A stretch of DNA of 64,000 nucleotides from Dietzia alimentaria 72 (GTDB taxonomy: Bacteria > Actinomycetota > Actinomycetes > Mycobacteriales > Mycobacteriaceae): contig NZ_AGFF01000025.1 in the NCBI RefSeq assembly GCF_000226215.1, positions 62,374 through 126,373 on the forward strand. The letters run 5' to 3'. The notes beneath the pieces are model-generated. The model ran no database searches, had not been told where the DNA came from, and saw only the letters and a program-made list of their open reading frames with translations. This document shows, one piece after another, positions 35,117-59,640 of this stretch (positions within the stretch are counted from its first letter, which is position 1; every line of letters begins with the position of its first letter). A program made the position numbers and the translations under genes.

Positions 35117-36616
35117 ATGGGCGAGGCATTCTGGAGACGCACGACCATCGACCCGCCGGCGGAGGCGTTCCCGGCCGGCGAGCACGTGGATCTGGTGGTT
35201 GCGGGCGCGGGCTTCACCGGCCTGATCACCGCAATCATGGCGGCCGCGCGCGGCAGATCCGTGGTGGTGCTGGAGGCACGCACGGTGGGGGCCGGGGCGA
35301 GTGGAGCGACCACGGCCAAGATCTCGGTTCTCCAGGGCACGCGATTGTCGGCCATTCGGTCGCGGCACGGGCTCGAGACGACGCGTGCCTACGCCGACGC
35401 CAACCTCTACGGGCTGGACTGGTGGGTTGAGTTCTGCGACTCCCACGGCGTTGATGTGCAACGACGTCGCGCGGTGACGTTCTCGAACAGCACTCTGGGC
35501 ACCTCCAGGCTCCGCAAGGAGATGCGCACGCTCGTCGAATTGGAGCTGCCCGCCCGGTGGTACGACAAGATGGACGTCCCGTTCCCGTCCCGCGCGGGGG
35601 TCGAACTGCCCGATCAACTGCAGTTCGATCCGGTGGAGGCGCTCGGCGCGCTGACCCGCGAGGCCACCGCGTTGGGCGTGCGGATCGTCGAACACGCCCG
35701 GGTCACCGGGCTCAAGGCGCAGGGCGCGGGGGAGGAGGCGTTTGTCGAGGTCACCGCCGCGATCGGTGCCTCCACCGATCCTGATCCCGATGCCAGAACC
35801 ACAGACACGCTCACCGCCCGCGACGTCGTCCTCGCCACCGCGACCCCCGCCCTCGACCACGGTCCCAGCGTGGCGACCATGGAGGCCGAGCGCTCATACC
35901 TGTGTGCATTCGAATACCCCGGCGGGCTACCGCAGGGCATGTACGCCTCGGTCGAGAGTCCGGTGCGCTCGCTGCGGACCGTCCCCCAAGGCAGCGATGA
36001 GGTCCTGTTGGTCGGAGGTAACGGTCACCGCACCGGAACCGCCGCCGGGACCGCCTCCAAGGTTGACTCACTCCGCGAGTACGCCGAGAAGCACTTCCCG
36101 GGCGCGCGATTCACCCACGGCTGGTCGGCGCAGGACTATCACCCCGTGACAATGTTGCCCAGGTCAGGCCCTCTGCCGTGGGGCCGCGGCCGAGTGCACT
36201 TCGCCGGCGGCTACAGCAAGTGGGGCCTGAGCGGGGCGCCCGCCGCGGCGGGGATCATGATCGATCGCCTCGAAGGCCTGGACCAGCGGGTCACGTTCGG
36301 CAAGCCGTCGATCACCGGGTCGGTCAAGAACGCGGTGCCACTGCTGGCGGACCTTCCCGTGCAACTCGCGGCCACCGCGGCGCAGGCGGCGGTACGGCGG
36401 CCACGGCCGACCGTCCGACCGATCGGTCAGGCGGTGGGCGACGACGGCGAGGTGTGCCGCGTCGGACTGCTGTGCCCCCACATGGGAGCCGCATTGGCGT
36501 GGAACGAGGTCGAGCGGTCCTGGGACTGTCCCTGGCACGGGTCGCGCTTCACCGCCTGCGGAGACCTGCTCGAAGGGCCCGCCAGCACCGGCCTCAAGAA
36601 ATACGACGTCCCCTGA
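35117..36616 (+). CDS. FAD-dependent oxidoreductase with C-terminal Rieske domain
   Basis: This 499-residue protein has an N-terminal DAO-type FAD fold (V-A-G-A-G-F-T-G-L, G-A-G-A-S-G-A-T-T-A-K) and, after residue 440, a Rieske [2Fe-2S] site. The ligands are Cys453-x-His455, then 15 residues, then Cys471-x-x-His474. Such fusions pass electrons between flavin and Rieske cluster; the substrate is unknown. ATG 35117 follows GGAGGAGG. Downstream at 27 nt is a Crp/Fnr gene on the same strand, a possible operon with redox sensing. Confidence 0.92.
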   Translation: MGEAFWRRTTIDPPAEAFPAGEHVDLVVAGAGFTGLITAIMAAARGRSVVVLEARTVGAGASGATTAKISVLQGTRLSAIRSRHGLETTRAYADANLYGLDWWVEFCDSHGVDVQRRRAVTFSNSTLGTSRLRKEMRTLVELELPARWYDKMDVPFPSRAGVELPDQLQFDPVEALGALTREATALGVRIVEHARVTGLKAQGAGEEAFVEVTAAIGASTDPDPDARTTDTLTARDVVLATATPALDHGPSVATMEAERSYLCAFEYPGGLPQGMYASVESPVRSLRTVPQGSDEVLLVGGNGHRTGTAAGTASKVDSLREYAEKHFPGARFTHGWSAQDYHPVTMLPRSGPLPWGRGRVHFAGGYSKWGLSGAPAAAGIMIDRLEGLDQRVTFGKPSITGSVKNAVPLLADLPVQLAATAAQAAVRRPRPTVRPIGQAVGDDGEVCRVGLLCPHMGAALAWNEVERSWDCPWHGSRFTACGDLLEGPASTGLKKYDVP

Positions 36617-42538: not shown

Positions 42539-43675
42539 TCACCGCCCTGACCCGCGTGGTGCGCCGAGCGCATCGCGGTAGACCTCGGCGTGAGCCGCTG
42601 CGACCGCGCCGTCCTCGGCCTCGGCGGCCCGTGGGGGGACAGTCGAGCTGGTGAGGGCGGTCTGCAGGGCGTCGCGCAACCCTGTGAGCCCGCGTTGTCC
42701 GGGATCGTAGGAGCCCGCCGGCGAACCCCACTGCTCGAGCAGGTGCCCGATTTCGGGGATGACCGGCGGCACCCCGAGGTCGCGGCACAGCTCCAGCCAC
42801 CCCGAGTGCGTGCCGTGACGATGCGGAAGAACCAGAGCGTCGAACCCGGCCAGGGTCCGGCACAGTTCGTCGTCGTCCAGGTGCTCGTGCGGGAGAAGGC
42901 GGACGTGCTCGCGGGCGTGCAGCAGGTCCAGGGTGAGGGCGGCAGCATGTCGGGCGTGACCGGGATCCCGGGCGGCGGACAGGGCGTCGGAGCGGACCAT
43001 CGCCACCAGGTCGACGCCATCGGGGAGCGCGTCGGCCAGCCGGGGGAGGAGTTCTTCCGCGGCGATCCCGGACCTCAGGGACCCCAGCATCACGCCCACG
43101 GAGCGACGGCCGGCCGGGCTGGGACCGTCCAGGCCTTCCAGGTGGCGGAGCCGGTGCGGCTCGGTGACCCCGGCGGGGAGCAGTCGCGGATGAGGAATCA
43201 CCCGCGCGTCCACGCCCCAGAGCCGCCCTATCTCGGTGGCCGCACCGCAGGTCAGCGTGATCACGGCGTCCGCGCCGCGGACCAGATGGCCGGTTCGCTC
43301 CAGGTGAGCCGTGGGATCGGTCTCGTGCGGATTGGTGAGGTCGTGCACAGTCACTACCAGCGCGAGCCCGCGGTCCCGCACAGCGGAGACAAAGCCCGCC
43401 ACCTGCTCAGGCGTCCTGTGCTCGTAGCCGAAGTGCACGTGCACCACGTCAGCGCCCCCCAGCACCCCGGGACGCTCAGCGGCCTCCAGCGCGGGGTGCG
43501 GCCACCAGCGAGCCGGGTCCGAGGGGTCCAGGATCGGGTCGTCGAGCAGGTGAACCGCGGACGTGCCCACCGCGGTGCCGACGGCGTGGCGGACGTAGTC
43601 GTGGCCAGCCGGCACAGACCGGACTCGGATCGATTGTCTGGTCGGGGTCGGGGTCGGGGGAACGCTGGAGTGCAC
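42539..43675 (-). CDS. GT4-type glycosyltransferase (divergent from glycan block)
   Basis: This protein of about 378 residues has a GT-B-type pattern. V-H-V-H-F-G-Y-E-H-R-T-P precedes V-V-T-V-H-D-L-T-N-P and A-D-A-V-I-T-L-T. H-R-H-G-T-H-S-G-W-L-E-L-C-R-D-L-G-V-P-P matches the C-terminal nucleotide-binding part, but the classic E-x7-E is not clear. GTG 43675 with AAGGTG upstream is preferred, since the longer frame runs into the divergent WcbI gene. It probably starts the glycan locus on the other strand. Sugar donor unknown. Confidence 0.75.
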   Translation of the reverse strand: MHSSVPPTPTPTRQSIRVRSVPAGHDYVRHAVGTAVGTSAVHLLDDPILDPSDPARWWPHPALEAAERPGVLGGADVVHVHFGYEHRTPEQVAGFVSAVRDRGLALVVTVHDLTNPHETDPTAHLERTGHLVRGADAVITLTCGAATEIGRLWGVDARVIPHPRLLPAGVTEPHRLRHLEGLDGPSPAGRRSVGVMLGSLRSGIAAEELLPRLADALPDGVDLVAMVRSDALSAARDPGHARHAAALTLDLLHAREHVRLLPHEHLDDDELCRTLAGFDALVLPHRHGTHSGWLELCRDLGVPPVIPEIGHLLEQWGSPAGSYDPGQRGLTGLRDALQTALTSSTVPPRAAEAEDGAVAAAHAEVYRDALGAPRGSGR

Positions 43676-43810
43676 CCCGTCACCTTGCCATCCGCGCGTG
43701 CCTAACCCCACTGCATCGGTGGCGGCAGTTGCGGGCCGGTTGCCGCCGCCGGGGGGCCTGCCTACGCTCGGCGCAGTGAATACCCCCAGCGCAGAGAAGG
43801 GTTCGGTCCA

Positions 43811-44677
43811 GTGAGCCACACCGACGTGCCCTCAGTCATGGTGATCGGCAATTGCCAGGCGGACGTCTATCGCGACCTGCTGCGTTCCGCCGAGGGCACC
43901 GCGGTGACCGACGTGCGACCGGTGTACGAGATGACGGCCCGGGATATCCCGACGCTGCATGCTGATCTCGCGCGCACCGACGTGTTGATCGTCCAGCCGA
44001 TCCGCGACGACTACCGCGACCTGCCGCTCGGTCACCGCCAGATGACCGCGCAGCTGCCGGCCTCGGCCACGGTCGTGCTGGTGCCGGTCCTGCGTTTCGC
44101 GGGGCTGCACCCGTACCAGGTGCTGATCCGGCCCCCACGGGACCGATCGCTCGTCCCGCCCATCGCCCCGTACCACGACCTGCGGGCGATCATGGCCGCG
44201 GCGACCGGGGATCGCGAGGTGCTCGACGCCGTGCCGAATCCGGACCAGGCGCATGCCTCGGTCCGCGAATCAGTTGAGGCGCTGCGGACCCGCGAGCAGG
44301 CCCACGGCACGCTGACCGCATCGGACCTGCTGGACTCCATGCCCCGCTGGCACACGATCAACCACCCGGACCGCGGCACCCTGGCGGGAGTCTTCGGGCG
44401 CATCCTCGCTGAACTCCCTCCCGGACTGATCGACCCGCCGCCCCGGATCGGCGACCGCGAACCCCTGGGTGACACCCAGGCTCCCGTCGATCCCGCCGTC
44501 GAGCGCGCGCTGGGCCTTCCCGAGATCGGACCGCGCGACTGGCTGGTCAACGGCGACGCCGTCTCCGCGAGTGAGGTCGTCGAGGCGCATCTGGCCTGGT
44601 ACGAGTCCACCCCGGGCGTGGTCGAGGAGGGCTTGCGCCGCCACGCCGCGCGCATCGAGCTCCTGGGGCTCAGGTGA
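43811..44677 (+). CDS. WcbI-family polysaccharide-biosynthesis protein
   Basis: This 288-residue protein opens V-M-V-I-G-N-C-Q-A-D-V-Y; the G-N-C-Q motif with Cys15 marks WcbI-type proteins linked to capsule synthesis and thought to modify sugars, perhaps as acyltransferases. There is no signal peptide or membrane segment. It is the first plus-strand gene of the glycosyltransferase block, overlapping the next gene by 4 bp (GTGA). WcbI from capsule loci binds coenzyme A; transfer to a sugar here is inferred. Confidence 0.8.
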   Translation: MSHTDVPSVMVIGNCQADVYRDLLRSAEGTAVTDVRPVYEMTARDIPTLHADLARTDVLIVQPIRDDYRDLPLGHRQMTAQLPASATVVLVPVLRFAGLHPYQVLIRPPRDRSLVPPIAPYHDLRAIMAAATGDREVLDAVPNPDQAHASVRESVEALRTREQAHGTLTASDLLDSMPRWHTINHPDRGTLAGVFGRILAELPPGLIDPPPRIGDREPLGDTQAPVDPAVERALGLPEIGPRDWLVNGDAVSASEVVEAHLAWYESTPGVVEEGLRRHAARIELLGLR

Positions 44678-45699
44678 ATGCACCGCTGACGATCGCGCTC
44701 GGCCCGCCGGCGCACGGGGTGACCCGCTTCGCCGTCGAGTGTGCTCAGGCCGCCGGAGCCGCGGTTCTCGACGTGCCCGACGTGGCCGGATTGCCCGCGG
44801 CGCTGGCCGCACTCCCGGCTCAGGGCTCGGCGAGGGCCATTCACCTGCACGTCACCGACCCGCTGTTCGGGGCGACTCCGGACGAGGCGGCAGACACGGT
44901 CGAGGCGGTGGCGCGGGACCGTCCGCTGGCCGTGACCCTGCACGATGTTCCCCAACCGGCCGAGGGCGAGGAGCGGTGTCGTTTCCGGACCCGGGCGTAT
45001 CAGCGGATCGCGGCGGCCGCTGACCTGGTCGTGGTGAGCTCCCGGCACGAGCGTGCCCTCTGCGAGGCTGCGGGCATCGTCGTCGACGCGGTGATCCCCC
45101 TGCCCGTCCCCGACCTGGGCGTCGCCTCGCGCCACGGCGCCCCACCTGAACCTGACGCGCGGTCGGTGGGGGTGTTCGGCTTCCTGCACCCGGGCAAAGC
45201 GGTGGACGTGGTGGCCGCGGCCGTGGCCGACCTCGCCGCCGCCGGCGATCACGAGGTGACGCTGCGGCTGCTGGGCGCGCCCGCCGACGGCCACCAGGAT
45301 TACGTGCGCGCCGCGGTCGAGACGGTCCGGGCAGCCGGGGGACGCGCCGAGGTCACCGGGAGGGTCGACGACGACGAGCTCGCCCGCGTCCTGGCGGAGG
45401 TGACCGTGCCGGTGGCCCTGTTCCGCAACGTGTCCGCGTCGGGCTCACTCAACACCTGGGCCGCCGCCGGGCGCCGCCCCCTGACCACCGATTCGGACTA
45501 CACCCGCGAGATGGAACAGCGGCGGCCCGGTTCCCTGCTGCTCACGGGCGCCCCCGGTCCCGCCGGTATCTCCGACCTCGCCGGCGACCTGCGCGCACTC
45601 CTCGACAACCCCGCCCCGACTCGCATCGACCCGCCCGGACCGGGCGCCACAGAGTTGGGCCGCGCCTACCGGCAGGCCTGGGAGAGGTGGATCGGGTGA
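44674..45699 (+). CDS. Glycosyltransferase, GT4/GT-B type
   Basis: This 341-residue GT-B-like protein lacks a signal and membrane segment. V-T-L-H-D-V-P-Q-P-A and A-A-D-L-V-V-V-S-S-R-H-E form the N-terminal half. V-G-V-F-G-F-L-H-P-G-K starts the C-terminal nucleotide-sugar half. The usual E-x7-E is degenerate (S-A-S-G-S-L-N-T-W-A). Start GTG 44674 overlaps the WcbI stop, and its own stop overlaps the next start by GTGA. Donor and acceptor unknown. Confidence 0.85.
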   Translation: MNAPLTIALGPPAHGVTRFAVECAQAAGAAVLDVPDVAGLPAALAALPAQGSARAIHLHVTDPLFGATPDEAADTVEAVARDRPLAVTLHDVPQPAEGEERCRFRTRAYQRIAAAADLVVVSSRHERALCEAAGIVVDAVIPLPVPDLGVASRHGAPPEPDARSVGVFGFLHPGKAVDVVAAAVADLAAAGDHEVTLRLLGAPADGHQDYVRAAVETVRAAGGRAEVTGRVDDDELARVLAEVTVPVALFRNVSASGSLNTWAAAGRRPLTTDSDYTREMEQRRPGSLLLTGAPGPAGISDLAGDLRALLDNPAPTRIDPPGPGATELGRAYRQAWERWIG

Positions 45700-47075
45700 G
45701 CGCGGGTACCTCGGCAATCCAGGCAAGCGTGGATGTGGTGATCCCGTACTACCGGGACCAGCAGATGCTCGACCGGATCCTCCACGCACTGCGCCACCAG
45801 ACCGGGCTCGCCGAGTCCCCCCGGGTGATCGTGGCGGACGACGGCTCGCCCACCCCGCCCGTCGTCCCCCCTGAGGTCACAGTGGTCCGGCAGGAGGACC
45901 GCGGATTCCGCGCCTCCGCCGCCCGGCACCTGGGCGCCCGGGCGGGAGAGGGTGAGCTGCTGCTTTTCCTGGACGGCGACACGGTCCCCGAGGCCGGCTA
46001 CGTGGCCGCCCTGCTGGCCGCCCTGGAGGGGAACCCGGACCTACTCGTGGTGGGCCGGCGCCGGTACGGGGTGTTCAGCGACCCCGCGGCGGCACCGGCG
46101 CAGCCAGCCCACCGGGGCCTCGAACTCGCCGAAGTCCTCCCGGATCCCGAGTGGCCGGCCTCGTTCTACACCGAGACCGACGGCCTCACCCGCACCGACG
46201 GTGGATGGCGAGCCGGACTCTGGCGGGGCGTGCTCTCGGCGGTGTGCGGGATGCACCGCCGGATGTACGACCTGGCCGGGGGCTTTGATCCCCACATCGT
46301 CGGTTACGGCGGTGAGGACTGGGACCTCGCCTGGCGCTGCGAACAGGTCGGCGGCCGGCTCCGCTACGTCCCCGACGCGGTGGCCTGGCACGACGGCCCC
46401 GACTGGTCGGGCCGCGCCGGAGCCGATGATCCCGACGGCGCTGCGCACCTGGCCCAGAAGAATGCCGAAACCGCACGACTGGCCCCGCTCATCGCCTCTC
46501 CCCTCACCCGGCCAGCGGGAGGGATCTTCGAGCTGCCGCTGATCGCCGTCCGCATCCATCGGGGCCCGGGCGGGGCGCAGCACGGCGCCGCCACCGCAAG
46601 CGTCGCGGGCAGCGGGTCCGTGGCAGCAACGTGTGCCTCGCTACTGCGGTGGGGCGATGTGACCGTCTCGGTGGACCCGGACACCCCGGACGCCCCTCTG
46701 ATCGCCGAGCTCTTCGCCGCGGATCCCCGGGTCCGACTCGAACCGCACGACCCGGGGGAGGCCCGCGAGGCAGCTGGCGCGGGTCTTCGTCGTCGTCCCG
46801 AGGTTCTGGTGGACATCCTCCGCCCCTGCGGGCTCGGTGCGCTCGACCCCGACCGGGTGCGTGCACTGTGCCCACCCGTGGGGAGCCTGACCGTGGACGA
46901 CGACGAGGGGCGCGTCCTCGCCCGGATCCGCACGTCGCGCGCCCTGGCCCGCGAGCAGATCTGGGGGGATTGCCCGGACGCGCCTAGGGCGATCGCCGCG
47001 AGAGAAGTCGGGGTGAGCCCCTTCGGAACACGGGGAGCGGGGGTACGGCTTGAACAGGTCCTCGGCGGCTGGTGA
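45696..47075 (+). CDS. GT2-type glycosyltransferase with extra C-terminal domain
   Basis: This 459-residue protein begins as a GT-A GT2 enzyme. V-D-V-V-I-P-Y-Y-R-D is followed by V-A-D-D-G-S and F-L-D-G-D-T, the DxD metal site. G-G-F-D-P-H-I-V-G-Y-G-G-E-D-W-D-L is the galactosyltransferase-7C-like motif. After residue 280 follows a domain of unknown type. GTG 45696 is preferred over GTG 45687 because GGAGAGG is then at proper spacing and the stop overlap is GTGA. Confidence 0.88.
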   Translation: MSAGTSAIQASVDVVIPYYRDQQMLDRILHALRHQTGLAESPRVIVADDGSPTPPVVPPEVTVVRQEDRGFRASAARHLGARAGEGELLLFLDGDTVPEAGYVAALLAALEGNPDLLVVGRRRYGVFSDPAAAPAQPAHRGLELAEVLPDPEWPASFYTETDGLTRTDGGWRAGLWRGVLSAVCGMHRRMYDLAGGFDPHIVGYGGEDWDLAWRCEQVGGRLRYVPDAVAWHDGPDWSGRAGADDPDGAAHLAQKNAETARLAPLIASPLTRPAGGIFELPLIAVRIHRGPGGAQHGAATASVAGSGSVAATCASLLRWGDVTVSVDPDTPDAPLIAELFAADPRVRLEPHDPGEAREAAGAGLRRRPEVLVDILRPCGLGALDPDRVRALCPPVGSLTVDDDEGRVLARIRTSRALAREQIWGDCPDAPRAIAAREVGVSPFGTRGAGVRLEQVLGGW

Positions 47076-47181
47076 CCAGGTCGTTCACCCCTCCGGTGGC
47101 GTCAGGCCCCCCGGGGGGTCACGATCGTAGGTCCAGCAGCGGTTAGCATCCGCCGGCTCGAGCCGAAGCGAAAGGGGGCCC

Positions 47182-48282
47182 GTGAACGCCCAAGACGACG
47201 ACCGACTGAAGATCGCCGTGATCGGCCCATCGCGGTTCCCCATCCGGGAACCGTACGCAGGCGGCCTCGAGGTGGTGGTGGCCAAGGAGGTTCCGGCCCT
47301 GCGCAGACGAGGCCACGACGTCACGCTGTTCGCCGCCGCCGGCAGCAAGGGGCACGACCGGCGGTTCGAGTTCACCACCATGACCGACGTGACCGGTTTC
47401 GGTGACAGCTTCTATCCCACGGGCGGGTACGAGGCCGACGCGGCCGAGTTCCACCGGCTCATGGACCATCTCGCCGAGTCCGATGTCGACGTGGTCCTCA
47501 ATCACAGCCTCAGCCACGTGCCACTGGTCCGGGCGGCCGACCTGGGCGCCCGCATGATCACCACGCTGCACTGCCCGCGGCTCGACCCCATGCAGGACGC
47601 CTTCGATCAGCTCGGCGAGGCGGCGGGCAGTGTGCTGGCGGTCAGTCGCTCCGTGCTCAGTTCCTGGCGGGTGCCCCAGGGCGCCACGGTGGTGCCCAAC
47701 GGGGTGGAGACGCGGATCTGGCGTCCGCAGCCCACCGCCGCCAACCCATCGCGCGCCGTGTGGTGCGGCCGCGTCGTTCCGGAGAAGGCGCCACATCTGG
47801 CGGTCGACGCGGTGATGCGGGCGGGCATGACCCTGGACTTGGCCGGCCGCGTCGGGGATGACCGGTACCTGGACGAGATCCTGGCTCCGCGCCTGCGGGA
47901 GGCGGGCAGTGCGGTCCGCTTCCACGGCGCTCTCAGCCGCGAGGCCCTGGTTCCACTCGTGGCACACGCGTCGGTGGCGCTGGTGACGCCGTGCTGGGAG
48001 GAGCCCTTCGGACTGACCGCGGTCGAGGCACTGGCCTGCGGGACGCCGGTCGTCGCGCTGGCTCGCGGTGGAATCCGCGAGATCCTCAGCGGCCAGCCCG
48101 GGGTGGTGCTGGTCGAACCGGAAGGCGATCTCGCCGCGCGCCTGGCCGCAGCCATTCCCGCCGCGCTGACCTTCGACCGCGCGGCCACCGCTCGGGCCGC
48201 CGCCGCGAGGTTCTCCCACGTCACCCGGATGGACCGCGTGGAGGCCCAGTTGAGGGGGCTGCCGGTCGGAGCCGCCACATGA
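47182..48282 (+). CDS. Glycosyltransferase, GT4 type
   Basis: This 366-residue protein is the most classical GT4 in the block. P-Y-A-G-G-L-E-V-V-V-A-K-E-V is followed by T-T-L-H-C-P-R, V-V-P-N-G-V-E-T and W-C-G-R-V-V-P-E-K-A-P-H. The nucleotide-sugar motif E-E-P-F-G-L-T-A-V-E-A shows the E-x7-E pair. GTG 47182 starts 106 bp after the previous gene, the largest gap in the block. The stop overlaps the next ATG (ATGA). Confidence 0.93.
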   Translation: MNAQDDDRLKIAVIGPSRFPIREPYAGGLEVVVAKEVPALRRRGHDVTLFAAAGSKGHDRRFEFTTMTDVTGFGDSFYPTGGYEADAAEFHRLMDHLAESDVDVVLNHSLSHVPLVRAADLGARMITTLHCPRLDPMQDAFDQLGEAAGSVLAVSRSVLSSWRVPQGATVVPNGVETRIWRPQPTAANPSRAVWCGRVVPEKAPHLAVDAVMRAGMTLDLAGRVGDDRYLDEILAPRLREAGSAVRFHGALSREALVPLVAHASVALVTPCWEEPFGLTAVEALACGTPVVALARGGIREILSGQPGVVLVEPEGDLAARLAAAIPAALTFDRAATARAAAARFSHVTRMDRVEAQLRGLPVGAAT

Positions 48283-49328
48283 TCGGTATCTACGCCCACC
48301 ACCACGGCAGCGGACACCTCCAGCGGGCGTTTTCCGTTTCGGCCGCCCTGGGCTATGACGTCACCATTCTCACCTCTGCGCCGGTCCCGGACGGCGCGAC
48401 CCCGTCCCCCGACCGTGTCCGGGTCCTGCGGTTGCCTCTGGACCACGACGGGCCGGGCGCCGTGTCCGGGCCTGTTGACCCCGCGAGCGAGCCGACCGCC
48501 GGTGGGCGACTGCACTGGGCCCCGCTCGGACAGCCGGGCCTGCGTCGACGGACGGCGATGCTCACCGAGTGGATCGACCAGAACCAGCCGACGGTCATGT
48601 TGACCGATGTCTCCGTCGAGATCACCCTCGCCGCTCGGCTGACCGGCACGCCGGTGGTCTCCACCGTGCTGCCCGGTCGGCGTGACGACGCGCCGCACGA
48701 GATGGCGCACGGCGTGTGCTCGGAGCTGGTGGCCGCGTGGCCGCGCTCGGCCGGTGCGCCCGTGCCCGCCGGGGCCGAGGCGCCTCTGATCCCGGTCGGA
48801 GGCGTCTCGCGCTTCGCGGGCCGCGACCCGGAACCGGCCGCGCGGGGTCGCGGCCGGCCTCGCGTCCTGCTCTTGCGGGGCAGCGGCGGACATGGCGACG
48901 ACCCCCGGTGGGAGGCCGTGCGCGATCAGTTCGACGACGTGGAGTGGGTGCAGCTCGGCGGGCCCGGTGGTCGCTGGGTGAGCGACCCCTGGGCGGAACT
49001 GTGTAGCGCCGACGTGGTGATCAGCGCGGCCGGGCAGAGCTCGGTGGCCGACCTCGCCGCCGCCGACGCGTTCATGGTGGCCGTTCCAGAGGAGCGCCCG
49101 TTCGCAGAGCAGGACGCCACCGCCGACCAGCTCGAGAGTCTGGGACACGGAGCGGTGGTCCGCCGAGACGCCCCCGTCGCCGATCTTGTCCGCGCGGTCC
49201 GCCAGATGCTCGAGCGATCTCGCTCGAACCCGGGCGCGGGATCGGGTCTGCGGCGCTCGTGGGAAATCGATGGTGCCGCCGAGAGACTGGCAACCGTCCT
49301 GACCTCGGTCTCCGGAGGTGCGCGGTGA
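48279..49328 (+). CDS. Glycosyltransferase, GT28/GT1-like
   Basis: This 349-residue protein begins M-I-G-I-Y-A-H-H-H-G-S-G-H-L-Q-R-A, the Gly-His loop of GT1/GT28 (MurG-like) enzymes. It ends with A-D-V-V-I-S-A-A-G-Q-S-S-V-A-D-L-A, the donor-binding GT28 motif. Start ATG 48279 overlaps the previous stop, and its stop overlaps the next GTG. No membrane segment. Donor unknown. Confidence 0.87.
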   Translation: MIGIYAHHHGSGHLQRAFSVSAALGYDVTILTSAPVPDGATPSPDRVRVLRLPLDHDGPGAVSGPVDPASEPTAGGRLHWAPLGQPGLRRRTAMLTEWIDQNQPTVMLTDVSVEITLAARLTGTPVVSTVLPGRRDDAPHEMAHGVCSELVAAWPRSAGAPVPAGAEAPLIPVGGVSRFAGRDPEPAARGRGRPRVLLLRGSGGHGDDPRWEAVRDQFDDVEWVQLGGPGGRWVSDPWAELCSADVVISAAGQSSVADLAAADAFMVAVPEERPFAEQDATADQLESLGHGAVVRRDAPVADLVRAVRQMLERSRSNPGAGSGLRRSWEIDGAAERLATVLTSVSGGAR

Positions 49329-50176
49329 TTCCCGGCTACCCGAAGCCGTCGACGGCGGTGGTCACGGTGTGCACTCCAGATCGGAAGGAGCACCTGCGCT
49401 CCCAGCGCCGCGCCCTGGCCGTTCACCTACCCGGCGCCCAGCACATCGTGGTGCTGCCGACTCGGCCGGGCAGCGAAGAGTTGGCCGCGGAACTCGCCAC
49501 AGACGGGGCCCTCCCCCTGGAGGTTCCCGCAGGACCCGATCTGCCAGTGGCCCGGTGCCGCAATCTGGGAGGGGACCGCGCGGCGGAGCTTGCTGAGCTG
49601 ATCATCTTCCTGGACGTGGACTGCATGCCGGGCCCCGATCTGAGAACCCGGTACAGCGAGCTCCCGCCGAATGCGGTGGGGCTCGGGCCGGTGACCTATC
49701 TGCCCGAGTCCGCGGGGGCGCCCTACCCGGACGATCTGCCCGGCTTCACCGATCCGCATCCGGCGCGGCCGTTCCCCGAGGAGGGGCTCCGGCAGCTGGA
49801 GACCGACGAGTTCGGGATGTTCTGGTCGCTGTCGTTCGCTCTTCACTCCGAACTCTGGAAGCGGCTCCGGTTTGAGTTCGGGGCATTTGACGAGGTCTAC
49901 ACCGGCTACGGTGCGGAGGACACTGACTTCGGCCGCCGGCTGCTGTACCGCCGCGTCCCTGTGGTGCTGGTGGCGGGCGCTCACGTGTATCACCGGTGGC
50001 ATCCGGTATCGGATCCGCCGGTCGAGCACCTCGGGGACCTGCTGCGCAACGGCGCCCACTTCGCTGAACGCTGGGGGGAGTGGCCCGCACCGGGCTGGTT
50101 CGCGGAGTTTGAGCGGCGGGGCCTGGTCCGACGCGAGGGCAACGGGTGGGTGGCGGCGGACCCGCCGCCCGCCTAG
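49325..50176 (+). CDS. GT2-type glycosyltransferase, last gene of the block
   Basis: This 283-residue GT-A-type enzyme has L-I-I-F-L-D-V-D-C-M (DxD) near residue 100 and A-F-D-E-V-Y-T-G-Y-G-A-E-D-T-D-F-G near residue 200. It resembles the 45.7-kb GT2 in the latter motif. Start GTG 49325 (GGAGGTG upstream) overlaps the preceding stop by GTGA. It ends the block; a long inverted repeat follows at 50194-50257. Confidence 0.9.
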   Translation: MIPGYPKPSTAVVTVCTPDRKEHLRSQRRALAVHLPGAQHIVVLPTRPGSEELAAELATDGALPLEVPAGPDLPVARCRNLGGDRAAELAELIIFLDVDCMPGPDLRTRYSELPPNAVGLGPVTYLPESAGAPYPDDLPGFTDPHPARPFPEEGLRQLETDEFGMFWSLSFALHSELWKRLRFEFGAFDEVYTGYGAEDTDFGRRLLYRRVPVVLVAGAHVYHRWHPVSDPPVEHLGDLLRNGAHFAERWGEWPAPGWFAEFERRGLVRREGNGWVAADPPPA

Positions 50177-57132: not shown

Positions 57133-59640
57133 ATGGCGTCATTTCTTTACCGGATCGGCCGATCGGCCTACCTGCACAGATGGAGGTACATCGCCGCCTG
57201 GCTGCTGATCATCGTCGGCATGGGCACGGCGGCCGCAACGCTCTCGCAGCAGACCACCAGCAGTTTCGAGATCCCCGGCCTCGAGTCCATCGAGACGCAG
57301 GAGGAGATCCAGGACCGGTTCCCCGGTTCGCCGAGTCAGCTCGACATTCCGACCGGCACCGTGGTGATCCGAGCGCCGGAGGGAAGCACCCTCACCGACC
57401 CGGCGGTGTCGGAGGACGTCGACGCCTTCCTCGCGGACGTGCGGGAACTCGACTTCCTCACCGGAACAGACGAGATCGTCAATCCCGTGCTCGCCGCGGA
57501 AGGCGTGACGCAGCAGCTGACCGAAGCCGGCGAAGAACAGGGCGCTCCGCCCGAGCAGATCGAGGCCGACATCGCCGCGCTCAGTCCCCTGAGCGCCGAC
57601 GAGACCACCGGGACCCTCGAGGTCCAGTTCGCGGCCGAGACCACGATGAGCGTCGAGCCCGAGAACCGCGAAGCCTTCGCCGACGTCGTCGCAGAGCACG
57701 AGGACGGGCTCACCATCGCCTACTCCGGCAACGCTTTTCAGGCGTCCGAGATCGGCGCCACCGGCGAGATCATCGGCATCGCCGTGGCCGCCGTCATCCT
57801 CACCATCACCTTCGGATCGCTCATCGCGGCGGGACTTCCCCTGTTGGTCGGCGTGGTGGGCGTCGGTATCGGGATCGCGGGAATCTTCGCCGCGACCTCA
57901 TTCACCGACACGATCAGCAACTTCACGCCAACCCTGGCATCCATGATCGGTCTGGCCGTGGGTATCGACTACGCACTGTTCATCGTGTCCCGGTTCCGGA
58001 CGGAGCTGGTCAAACACATCGGCGGCAACGACCTACTGCCCCGAGAACTCGCGCAGCAACTCAAGACGATCCCGCGCCGCGAACGCGCCCACCTGGCGGG
58101 ACTCGCCGTGGGCAAGGCCGGCTCCGCTGTGGTGTTCGCGGGTCTGACGGTCCTCATCGCGCTCGCCGCGCTGTCGATCATCAACATCCCGTTCCTCACC
58201 GCGATGGCGCTGTCCGCCGCCGCGACCGTTGCCGTGGCCGTGCTCGTGGCCATCACACTCCTGCCCGCAGTCCTCGGTGCCGTGGGCACCAAGGTCTTCG
58301 CCGCACGCATCCCCGTCGTCAAGGCTCCAGACCCGGAGGACGAGAAGCCGACTATGGGCCTGTCGTGGGTCCGGCGAGTGCGCAAGCACCCGGTGCTGCA
58401 CGCCGTCGTCGGCGTCCTCCTGCTCGGCCTCCTCGCGGTCCCGGCCGCCCAGTTGCGCCTCGCCATGCCGTCAGACGGCACGATGTCACCGGGCACTCCC
58501 AACCGCACCGCGTACGACCTCACGTCGGAGGCGTTCGGTCCCGGGCGCAACGCGCCAATGATCGCCTTTGTGGACACGCTTGACGTGACCGAGGAGGAGC
58601 GTCCGGCCGCATGGGCCACCGCCGTGGAGGACATCCAGGCGGTCGACGGCGTGCAGAACGCCCAGATCATCGCGACCAACGAGACCGCGGACGCGGCCCA
58701 GGTGCTCATCACCCCGAAGTTCGGTGCCACGGATGAGCGCGCCGCCACGGTCCTCGACGACATCCGGGCGAGTGTCGGACAGTTCGAGCAGCAGACCGGT
58801 GGTACCTACTCGGTCACCGGCGTCACCCCGATCTACGAGGACATCTCCGAGCGACTGTCCGAGGTGTTGCTGCCGTACATCGGGATTGTCCTGGTGCTCG
58901 CCTTCATCCTGCTCATGCTGGTGTTCCGATCCATCTGGGTGCCGCTGATCGCCGCGCTGGGCTTCAGCCTGTCGGTTGCGGCCACGTTCGGTCTGACCGT
59001 TGCGCTCTGGCAGGAGGGCTGGGGCGGCCTCGTCTCCGACCCGCAGCCGATCATCAGCTTCCTGCCGATCATCCTCATCGGCATTGTGTTCGGCCTGGCC
59101 ATGGACTACCAGGTCTTCCTCGTCACCCGGATGCGCGAGGGGTGGGTCCACGGAAAGACGGCCGAGAACGCGGTGGCCAACGGGTTCAAGCACGGCGCCC
59201 GCGTCGTCACATCGGCCGCGTTGATCATGACGAGCGTCTTTGCCGCCTTCATGACGATCGATGAGCAATTCATCAAGGTCATGGGCTTCGCGTTGGCGGT
59301 GGCGGTCCTGTTCGATGCCTTCATCGTTCGAATGACCATCATCCCGGCGGTCATGTTCCTCCTCGGGGAGCGCGCCTGGAAGATTCCGCGGTGGCTCGAC
59401 CGGATACTGCCGGCCGTCGACGTCGAGGGGTCGGCGCTGGAATCGATGGAGGCCGAAGAGTCCTCTGGCCCACGCGGCTCTACCGACTCCTCGGACCCCG
59501 CTGAGGAGGCGCCCGAGCCCGCGTTGGTCAGTGGCCGCCACTCCGCCGACCACGTCGCCGACCAGTCATCCGGCGCGGGCAAGCATGAGCGCGACGATCA
59601 CGGCGGCGGTGATGGCGCCGGGAGCAGAGCAGATGGCTAG
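57133..59640 (+). CDS. MMPL-family RND transporter
   Basis: This 835-residue protein has twelve membrane segments in two halves. G-L-A-V-G-I-D-Y-A-L-F-I-V-S-R and G-L-A-M-D-Y-Q-V-F-L-V-T-R hold the Asp-Tyr proton-relay pairs. Large periplasmic domains follow segments 1 and 7. The C-terminal tail is rich in Ser, Glu and Asp and lacks known motifs. MmpL proteins export lipids or siderophores in mycolic-acid bacteria; cargo unknown. CAGGAGGGG precedes the ATG. The stop overlaps the TetR gene by 8 bp. Confidence 0.93.
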   Translation: MASFLYRIGRSAYLHRWRYIAAWLLIIVGMGTAAATLSQQTTSSFEIPGLESIETQEEIQDRFPGSPSQLDIPTGTVVIRAPEGSTLTDPAVSEDVDAFLADVRELDFLTGTDEIVNPVLAAEGVTQQLTEAGEEQGAPPEQIEADIAALSPLSADETTGTLEVQFAAETTMSVEPENREAFADVVAEHEDGLTIAYSGNAFQASEIGATGEIIGIAVAAVILTITFGSLIAAGLPLLVGVVGVGIGIAGIFAATSFTDTISNFTPTLASMIGLAVGIDYALFIVSRFRTELVKHIGGNDLLPRELAQQLKTIPRRERAHLAGLAVGKAGSAVVFAGLTVLIALAALSIINIPFLTAMALSAAATVAVAVLVAITLLPAVLGAVGTKVFAARIPVVKAPDPEDEKPTMGLSWVRRVRKHPVLHAVVGVLLLGLLAVPAAQLRLAMPSDGTMSPGTPNRTAYDLTSEAFGPGRNAPMIAFVDTLDVTEEERPAAWATAVEDIQAVDGVQNAQIIATNETADAAQVLITPKFGATDERAATVLDDIRASVGQFEQQTGGTYSVTGVTPIYEDISERLSEVLLPYIGIVLVLAFILLMLVFRSIWVPLIAALGFSLSVAATFGLTVALWQEGWGGLVSDPQPIISFLPIILIGIVFGLAMDYQVFLVTRMREGWVHGKTAENAVANGFKHGARVVTSAALIMTSVFAAFMTIDEQFIKVMGFALAVAVLFDAFIVRMTIIPAVMFLLGERAWKIPRWLDRILPAVDVEGSALESMEAEESSGPRGSTDSSDPAEEAPEPALVSGRHSADHVADQSSGAGKHERDDHGGGDGAGSRADG

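Follow-up and report, generated by a model that had tools for sequence, protein, structure and literature searches.

The methylmannose and methylglucose polysaccharides of mycobacteria are cytosolic glycans of actinomycetes that have no exporter, a feature in which they resemble the gene block described here. With regard to the WcbI family, the CoA-contacting residues have been defined in the Burkholderia protein (Cys14, Arg167, His201 and Arg294), which binds CoA but displayed no transferase activity in vitro (PMC4104973). Here, we have analyzed a member of this family and six glycosyltransferases (GTs) encoded beside it in a window of 64,000 nucleotides (the whole stretch of DNA studied) from the 3.35-Mb genome of Dietzia alimentaria 72.

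Gene content and predicted enzymes of the block

The GT/WcbI block occupies positions 42539-50176 of the window. All seven genes that the initial annotation had listed, one on the minus and six on the plus strand, were found as ORFs, and its domain assignments also hold, including one WcbI protein (PF18588), two GT2 proteins (g4 and g7), one protein with a GT28 C-terminal domain (g6) and three GT4/GT-B proteins (g1 by its AlphaFold2 model, g3 and g5 by Pfam). The features are listed below, with the modules to which they are assigned:

42539..43675, minus strand: g1, GT-B (GT4-like) glycosyltransferase, core module; divergent from the other six genes, kept with the set elsewhere
43811..44677, plus strand: g2, WcbI-family protein (PF18588), putative CoA-dependent acyl/acetyltransferase, add-on module
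44674..45699, plus strand: g3, GT4-like GT-B protein, add-on module
45696..47075, plus strand: g4, GT2 (GT-A) protein with a C-terminal degenerate second GT-A-like domain, add-on module
47076..47181, no strand: intermodule gap of 106 bp between add-on g2-g4 and core g5-g7
47182..48282, plus strand: g5, GT4 with an intact E-x7-E motif, core module
48279..49328, plus strand: g6, GT28/MurG/YjiC-like GT-B protein, core module; best marker of the system
49325..50176, plus strand: g7, GT2/GT7C-like (galactosyltransferase-related) GT-A protein, core module

Five plus-strand junctions had been described as overlapping or nearly so; four of them are indeed 4-bp stop/start overlaps (GTGA, GTGA, ATGA and GTGA), but the fifth is the 106-bp gap, which sits exactly at the boundary between the add-on and the core. 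A perfect palindrome, CCCCCCGGGGGG, is found inside this gap at about 47107-47118, with no T run behind it. A sigma-70 promoter scan found none, and the two terminator-like sites are near chance level. Alternative starts are available for g1 (43819, 43711 and 43615) and possibly for g4 (45687); that of g1 is probably near 43675 or 43615 rather than 43819, and thus an overlap with g2 is not required.

g2 scores 179 bits against the Pfam WcbI profile (cut-off 29.2) and matches the solved Burkholderia WcbI with an E value of 2e-17 in a profile search. The residues aligned to C14, R167, H201 and R294 of that protein are retained in g2 (C, R, H and R), and these CoA-contact residues are invariant across 20 relatives. 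In the Pfam search of the seven proteins, g1 had no match; its AlphaFold2 model (pLDDT 85) has a GT-B fold nearest to GT4 enzymes, the best fold matches being GlgM, BshA, MshA and sucrose-phosphate synthase (SPS), and g1 would be the primer-forming or first transferase. The Pfam GT4 match of g3 is weak and the protein is without the usual E-x7-E motif, so that g3 may be unusual or inactive. Pfam assigned GT2 to g4 and g7, GT4 to g5 and the GT28 C-terminal domain to g6. For the region of g4 past residue 280, which had been singled out as an extra domain, structure prediction (mean pLDDT 81) gave a shortened second GT-A-like domain at about 286-460, and the match to K4 chondroitin polymerase (K4CP) spans the whole length of the protein. 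Since no recognizable DDGS or DxD motif is present in this second domain when aligned with K4CP, it is probably not a second catalytic site. The closest solved relatives of g5 are UDP-glucose:tetrahydrobiopterin glucosyltransferases. In PHROGs, g1, g2, g6 and g7 were without match, and a hydropathy scan predicted membrane helices in none of the seven proteins.

Conservation and modular organization

The complete set of seven genes is found in Dietzia, Corynebacterium, Kocuria, Brevibacterium and many other actinomycetes; conserved co-occurrence of the six plus-strand genes was what the initial annotation had asked for in support of its reading. Six Dietzia loci possess the complete set in identical order. 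Outside this genus the order is shuffled while the set itself is kept: in the Corynebacterium, Kocuria and Brevibacterium loci, g7-g6-g5-g1 share a strand and WcbI-g3-g4 run opposite to them (two of the Corynebacterium contigs, being short, do not show the full set), and further arrangements are present in other genomes of the order. In addition, g3 is fused to g4 in Corynebacterium lemuris, C. pilosum, C. gallinarum and two other genomes, g6 to g7 at locus L050 and g7 to g1 at locus L055, and these fusions tie the genes into what is predicted to be one pathway. WcbI and the block copy of g6 are both present in the same 12 of 23 Dietzia genomes and both absent in the other 11. Because all seven genes are under purifying selection (dN/dS of 0.15-0.25 versus D. 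natronolimnaea), stay together in other genera and show this co-presence within Dietzia, the block is far beyond chance, and the seven-gene set is well supported as a real, widely shared unit. The genome also has an intact g6 paralogue with about 42% identity, at L097:8508-9491 (C9:54507-55490), with no other GT of the set alongside; it is kept in most Dietzia genomes, some of which are without the seven-gene block.

The initial annotation had missed its two-module structure as well as the stress and SPS neighborhoods discussed below. Judged by its distribution, the block resolves into a core (g1-g5-g6-g7) and an add-on (WcbI, g3 and g4). The core is a fixed four-gene operon that occurs alone in many genomes and is at times followed by g3-g4. 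Among 395 genomes of the class, 19 have WcbI and 55 have a close relative of g6 (E below 1e-50); every one of the 19 WcbI genomes carries g6 (hypergeometric 2e-18, with kinship ignored). In ten of them WcbI and g6 are linked, in one they are 28 kb apart, and in eight they are separated by more than 300 kb or do not share a contig; solitary WcbI genes elsewhere in core-bearing genomes are seen at loci L083, L085, L091 and L093. The add-on thus appears to depend on the core, in that WcbI was never seen without g6 in the 395-genome sample while the core occurs without WcbI.

A link to the mycolate envelope, which had been proposed as a possibility, is unsupported because the full set is found in Kocuria and Brevibacterium, both of which have no mycolates, and the core triad is found in Alphaproteobacteria.

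Genomic neighborhoods in actinomycetes and Alphaproteobacteria

The flanks of solitary cores share KatE-type catalases, SigB/F-type sigma factors, zinc alcohol dehydrogenases, GAF-ANTAR regulators, a general-stress-protein-26-like protein and a DAO-Rieske oxidoreductase; these family names were assigned by reading the sequences, and several of the families are likewise annotated near cores on plasmids. Close to the core (10 kb or less), a KatE catalase gene was found in 8 genomes from five genera, against an expectation of 0.09 genes, and a SigB/F gene in 5 genomes, against an expectation of 0.22; both expectations are based on whole-genome counts in 28 core-bearing genomes with shared ancestry ignored. 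Among seven-gene loci, L098 has KatE nearby, and L041 has a zinc alcohol dehydrogenase and a DAO-Rieske oxidoreductase nearby. The catalase and sigma-factor neighbors suggest stress protection. In the window, there is no KatE or SigF neighbor of the Dietzia block; a DAO-Rieske FAD oxidoreductase at 35117-36616, about 6 kb from the block, is 42% identical to the family recurring near solitary cores of other genera. Control by a SigF promoter was considered and rejected, as no motif was found in the window or upstream of 29 core g1 genes. What ties the block to stress is therefore an association seen in relatives, and no demonstration in Dietzia. On a Rhodococcus plasmid (L058:9361-17961), genes for a SigB/F factor, an ANTAR protein and an anti-sigma-like ATPase lie a few kb away from the four-gene core, which can thus be mobile.

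Relatives of g6, g7 and g5 are also present on plasmid records of Sulfitobacter, Paracoccus, Sphingomonas, Roseomonas, Pontibrevibacter, Methylobacterium and Falsirhodobacter, with identities, in those compared, of about 30-32% for g6, 37-41% for g7 and 37-39% for g5. Of the 13 alphaproteobacterial loci examined, 11 have an SPS-like gene upstream of their g6 relative, and a sucrose-phosphatase domain is fused to it in eight of the nine scanned among these 11, the shorter Falsirhodobacter gene being without this domain. The sucrose-phosphatase domain is clear, whereas the synthase domain scores 297-311 bits against an NCBIfam equivalog cut-off of 576. The remaining two loci, from Sphingobium RAC03 and Novosphingobium resinovorum, have a catalase gene just upstream of the triad. 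Further neighbors include treY/treZ at the Paracoccus aestuarii locus, a pyruvyl transferase gene near the triad in three Sphingomonas loci, and a sulfotransferase gene near the SPS-like gene and the triad in four rhodobacterial plasmid loci (by Pfam for three):

L059:6849-7637, sulfotransferase gene
L111:2072-2851, sulfotransferase gene
L113:2983-3750, sulfotransferase gene
L115:3039-3809, sulfotransferase gene

In two sphingomonad loci (L103:10002-13211 and L061:15133-18261), the triad is followed by genes for an acyl-CoA dehydrogenase, a PIG-L deacetylase, a NodS-like methyltransferase and a second GT2, which may form an additional module for decoration.

Possible product and comparison with known systems

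With moderate confidence, we favor the reading that the block, under stress, makes a soluble oligosaccharide primed by a small sugar, and that the WcbI module extends this product and O-acylates it. The core enzymes g1, g5, g6 and g7 would start from a small soluble primer and build the oligosaccharide in the cytosol, with g1 filling the place held by the SPS-like protein in Alphaproteobacteria and g5, g6 and g7 adding sugars after it; the add-on GTs would lengthen or branch the product, WcbI would O-acylate it, and the compound would serve as a stress or desiccation protectant. We infer this order of reactions, the primer, the solubility of the product, its acylation, its protective role (above all in Dietzia) and stress control in Dietzia. 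Such a product, soluble and built on a primer, accounts for the absence of exporters and of membrane segments, for the SPS connection and for the relatives of the enzymes.

The initial view that a self-contained GT set produces a defined glycan is supported by the co-occurrence of the genes and by the lack of a conserved transporter or polymerase. It had noted that no transporter, flippase, polymerase or sugar-nucleotide gene accompanies the block; none of these is conserved at the loci compared, and no Wzx/Wzy, ABC exporter or priming phosphoglycosyltransferase recurs at the 29 WcbI loci or at about 30 core loci. It is accordingly improbable that the block makes the repeat unit of a surface or wall polysaccharide whose polymerase or exporter is encoded elsewhere, even though the founding WcbI sits in a capsule cluster (PMC4104973) and the alphaproteobacterial pyruvyl transferase and sulfotransferase neighbors point to modifications that exported glycans typically carry. 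A capsule-type assignment based on WcbI alone was rejected, as no export genes recur at the loci.

An all-against-all comparison of flanking ORFs in the 29 loci revealed MMPL as the only recurrent extra family, in four distant loci, and an MMPL family transporter is located at 57133-59640 of the window, about 7 kb downstream of the block. Together with the fact that GT4 enzymes often act on lipids, these genes may be counted for a glycolipid head group, where peripheral GTs would extend an inner-leaflet lipid, WcbI would acylate it and unlinked proteins such as MMPL would flip it. The absence of helices is compatible with such a product, since peripheral GT4 membrane proteins exist, and we regard it as possible but rather unlikely, though more likely than the surface polymer. 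MMPL genes are, however, plentiful in actinomycetes and, with only four of 29 loci, are probably background; in addition, the closest folds of g1 and the solved relatives of g5 use soluble acceptors, and the alphaproteobacterial version starts with an SPS-like gene.

For the favored soluble oligosaccharide, the acceptor of the nearest solved relatives of g5, a soluble pterin, provides support, but the sucrose link rests on Alphaproteobacteria, with g6 only 30-32% identical and a synthase scoring below the NCBIfam SPS cut-off. The same g5 relatives, and a partial match of g4 to the mycofactocin glycosyltransferase MftF, could point instead to glycosylation of a non-sugar small molecule, e.g., a pterin or, as in mycofactocin, a redox cofactor. 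This is very improbable, considering that the MftF match reaches 88 bits against a cut-off of 280 and that no cofactor-biosynthesis gene recurs at the loci.

More tentatively, the oligosaccharide may belong to a modular pathway shared across phyla and partly plasmid-borne, in which stress-induced sucrose-type oligosaccharides are made by the GT triad with interchangeable starters (g1 or SPS/phosphatase) and decorations (WcbI acylation, sulfation or pyruvylation), representing a new class of decorated compatible solutes. Overall, the probable product of the block is a previously undescribed sugar compound, decorated and protective. If so, a widespread, unstudied gene set of actinomycetes and surface-living Alphaproteobacteria makes an overlooked protective carbohydrate, for which g6 is a single marker gene and a predicted starter is available in each phylum, and WcbI-family proteins gain a soluble pathway in which to seek their missing substrate.

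In line with the initial statement that no named system with this gene set was known to it, neither the set, nor its modularity, nor the cross-phylum triad was found described in the open-access literature searched (most subscription papers lie outside it); the enzyme families are all known. The second GT-A-like domain relates g4 to K4CP, from which it differs in that this domain is short and has no recognizable DDGS/DxD, and there is no capsule system at the block. With MftF, g4 shares partial GT2 similarity, and its assignment as MftF was rejected on the above score. The methylmannose mannosyltransferase of M. hassiacum is among the fold matches of g1, but no methyltransferase or dedicated hydrolase recurs with the set. 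Like WcbI of the Burkholderia pseudomallei CPS-I capsule, g2 is a family member with the four CoA residues retained, whereas the block is without the capsule export and heptose genes of CPS-I and the partners of g2 are six GTs without membrane segments. Finally, the sucrose-phosphate synthase/phosphatase pathways share with the system the SPS-like gene, mostly phosphatase-fused, that precedes the alphaproteobacterial triad; they differ in that the window has no SPS and the actinomycete loci have g1 as an extra GT-B gene.
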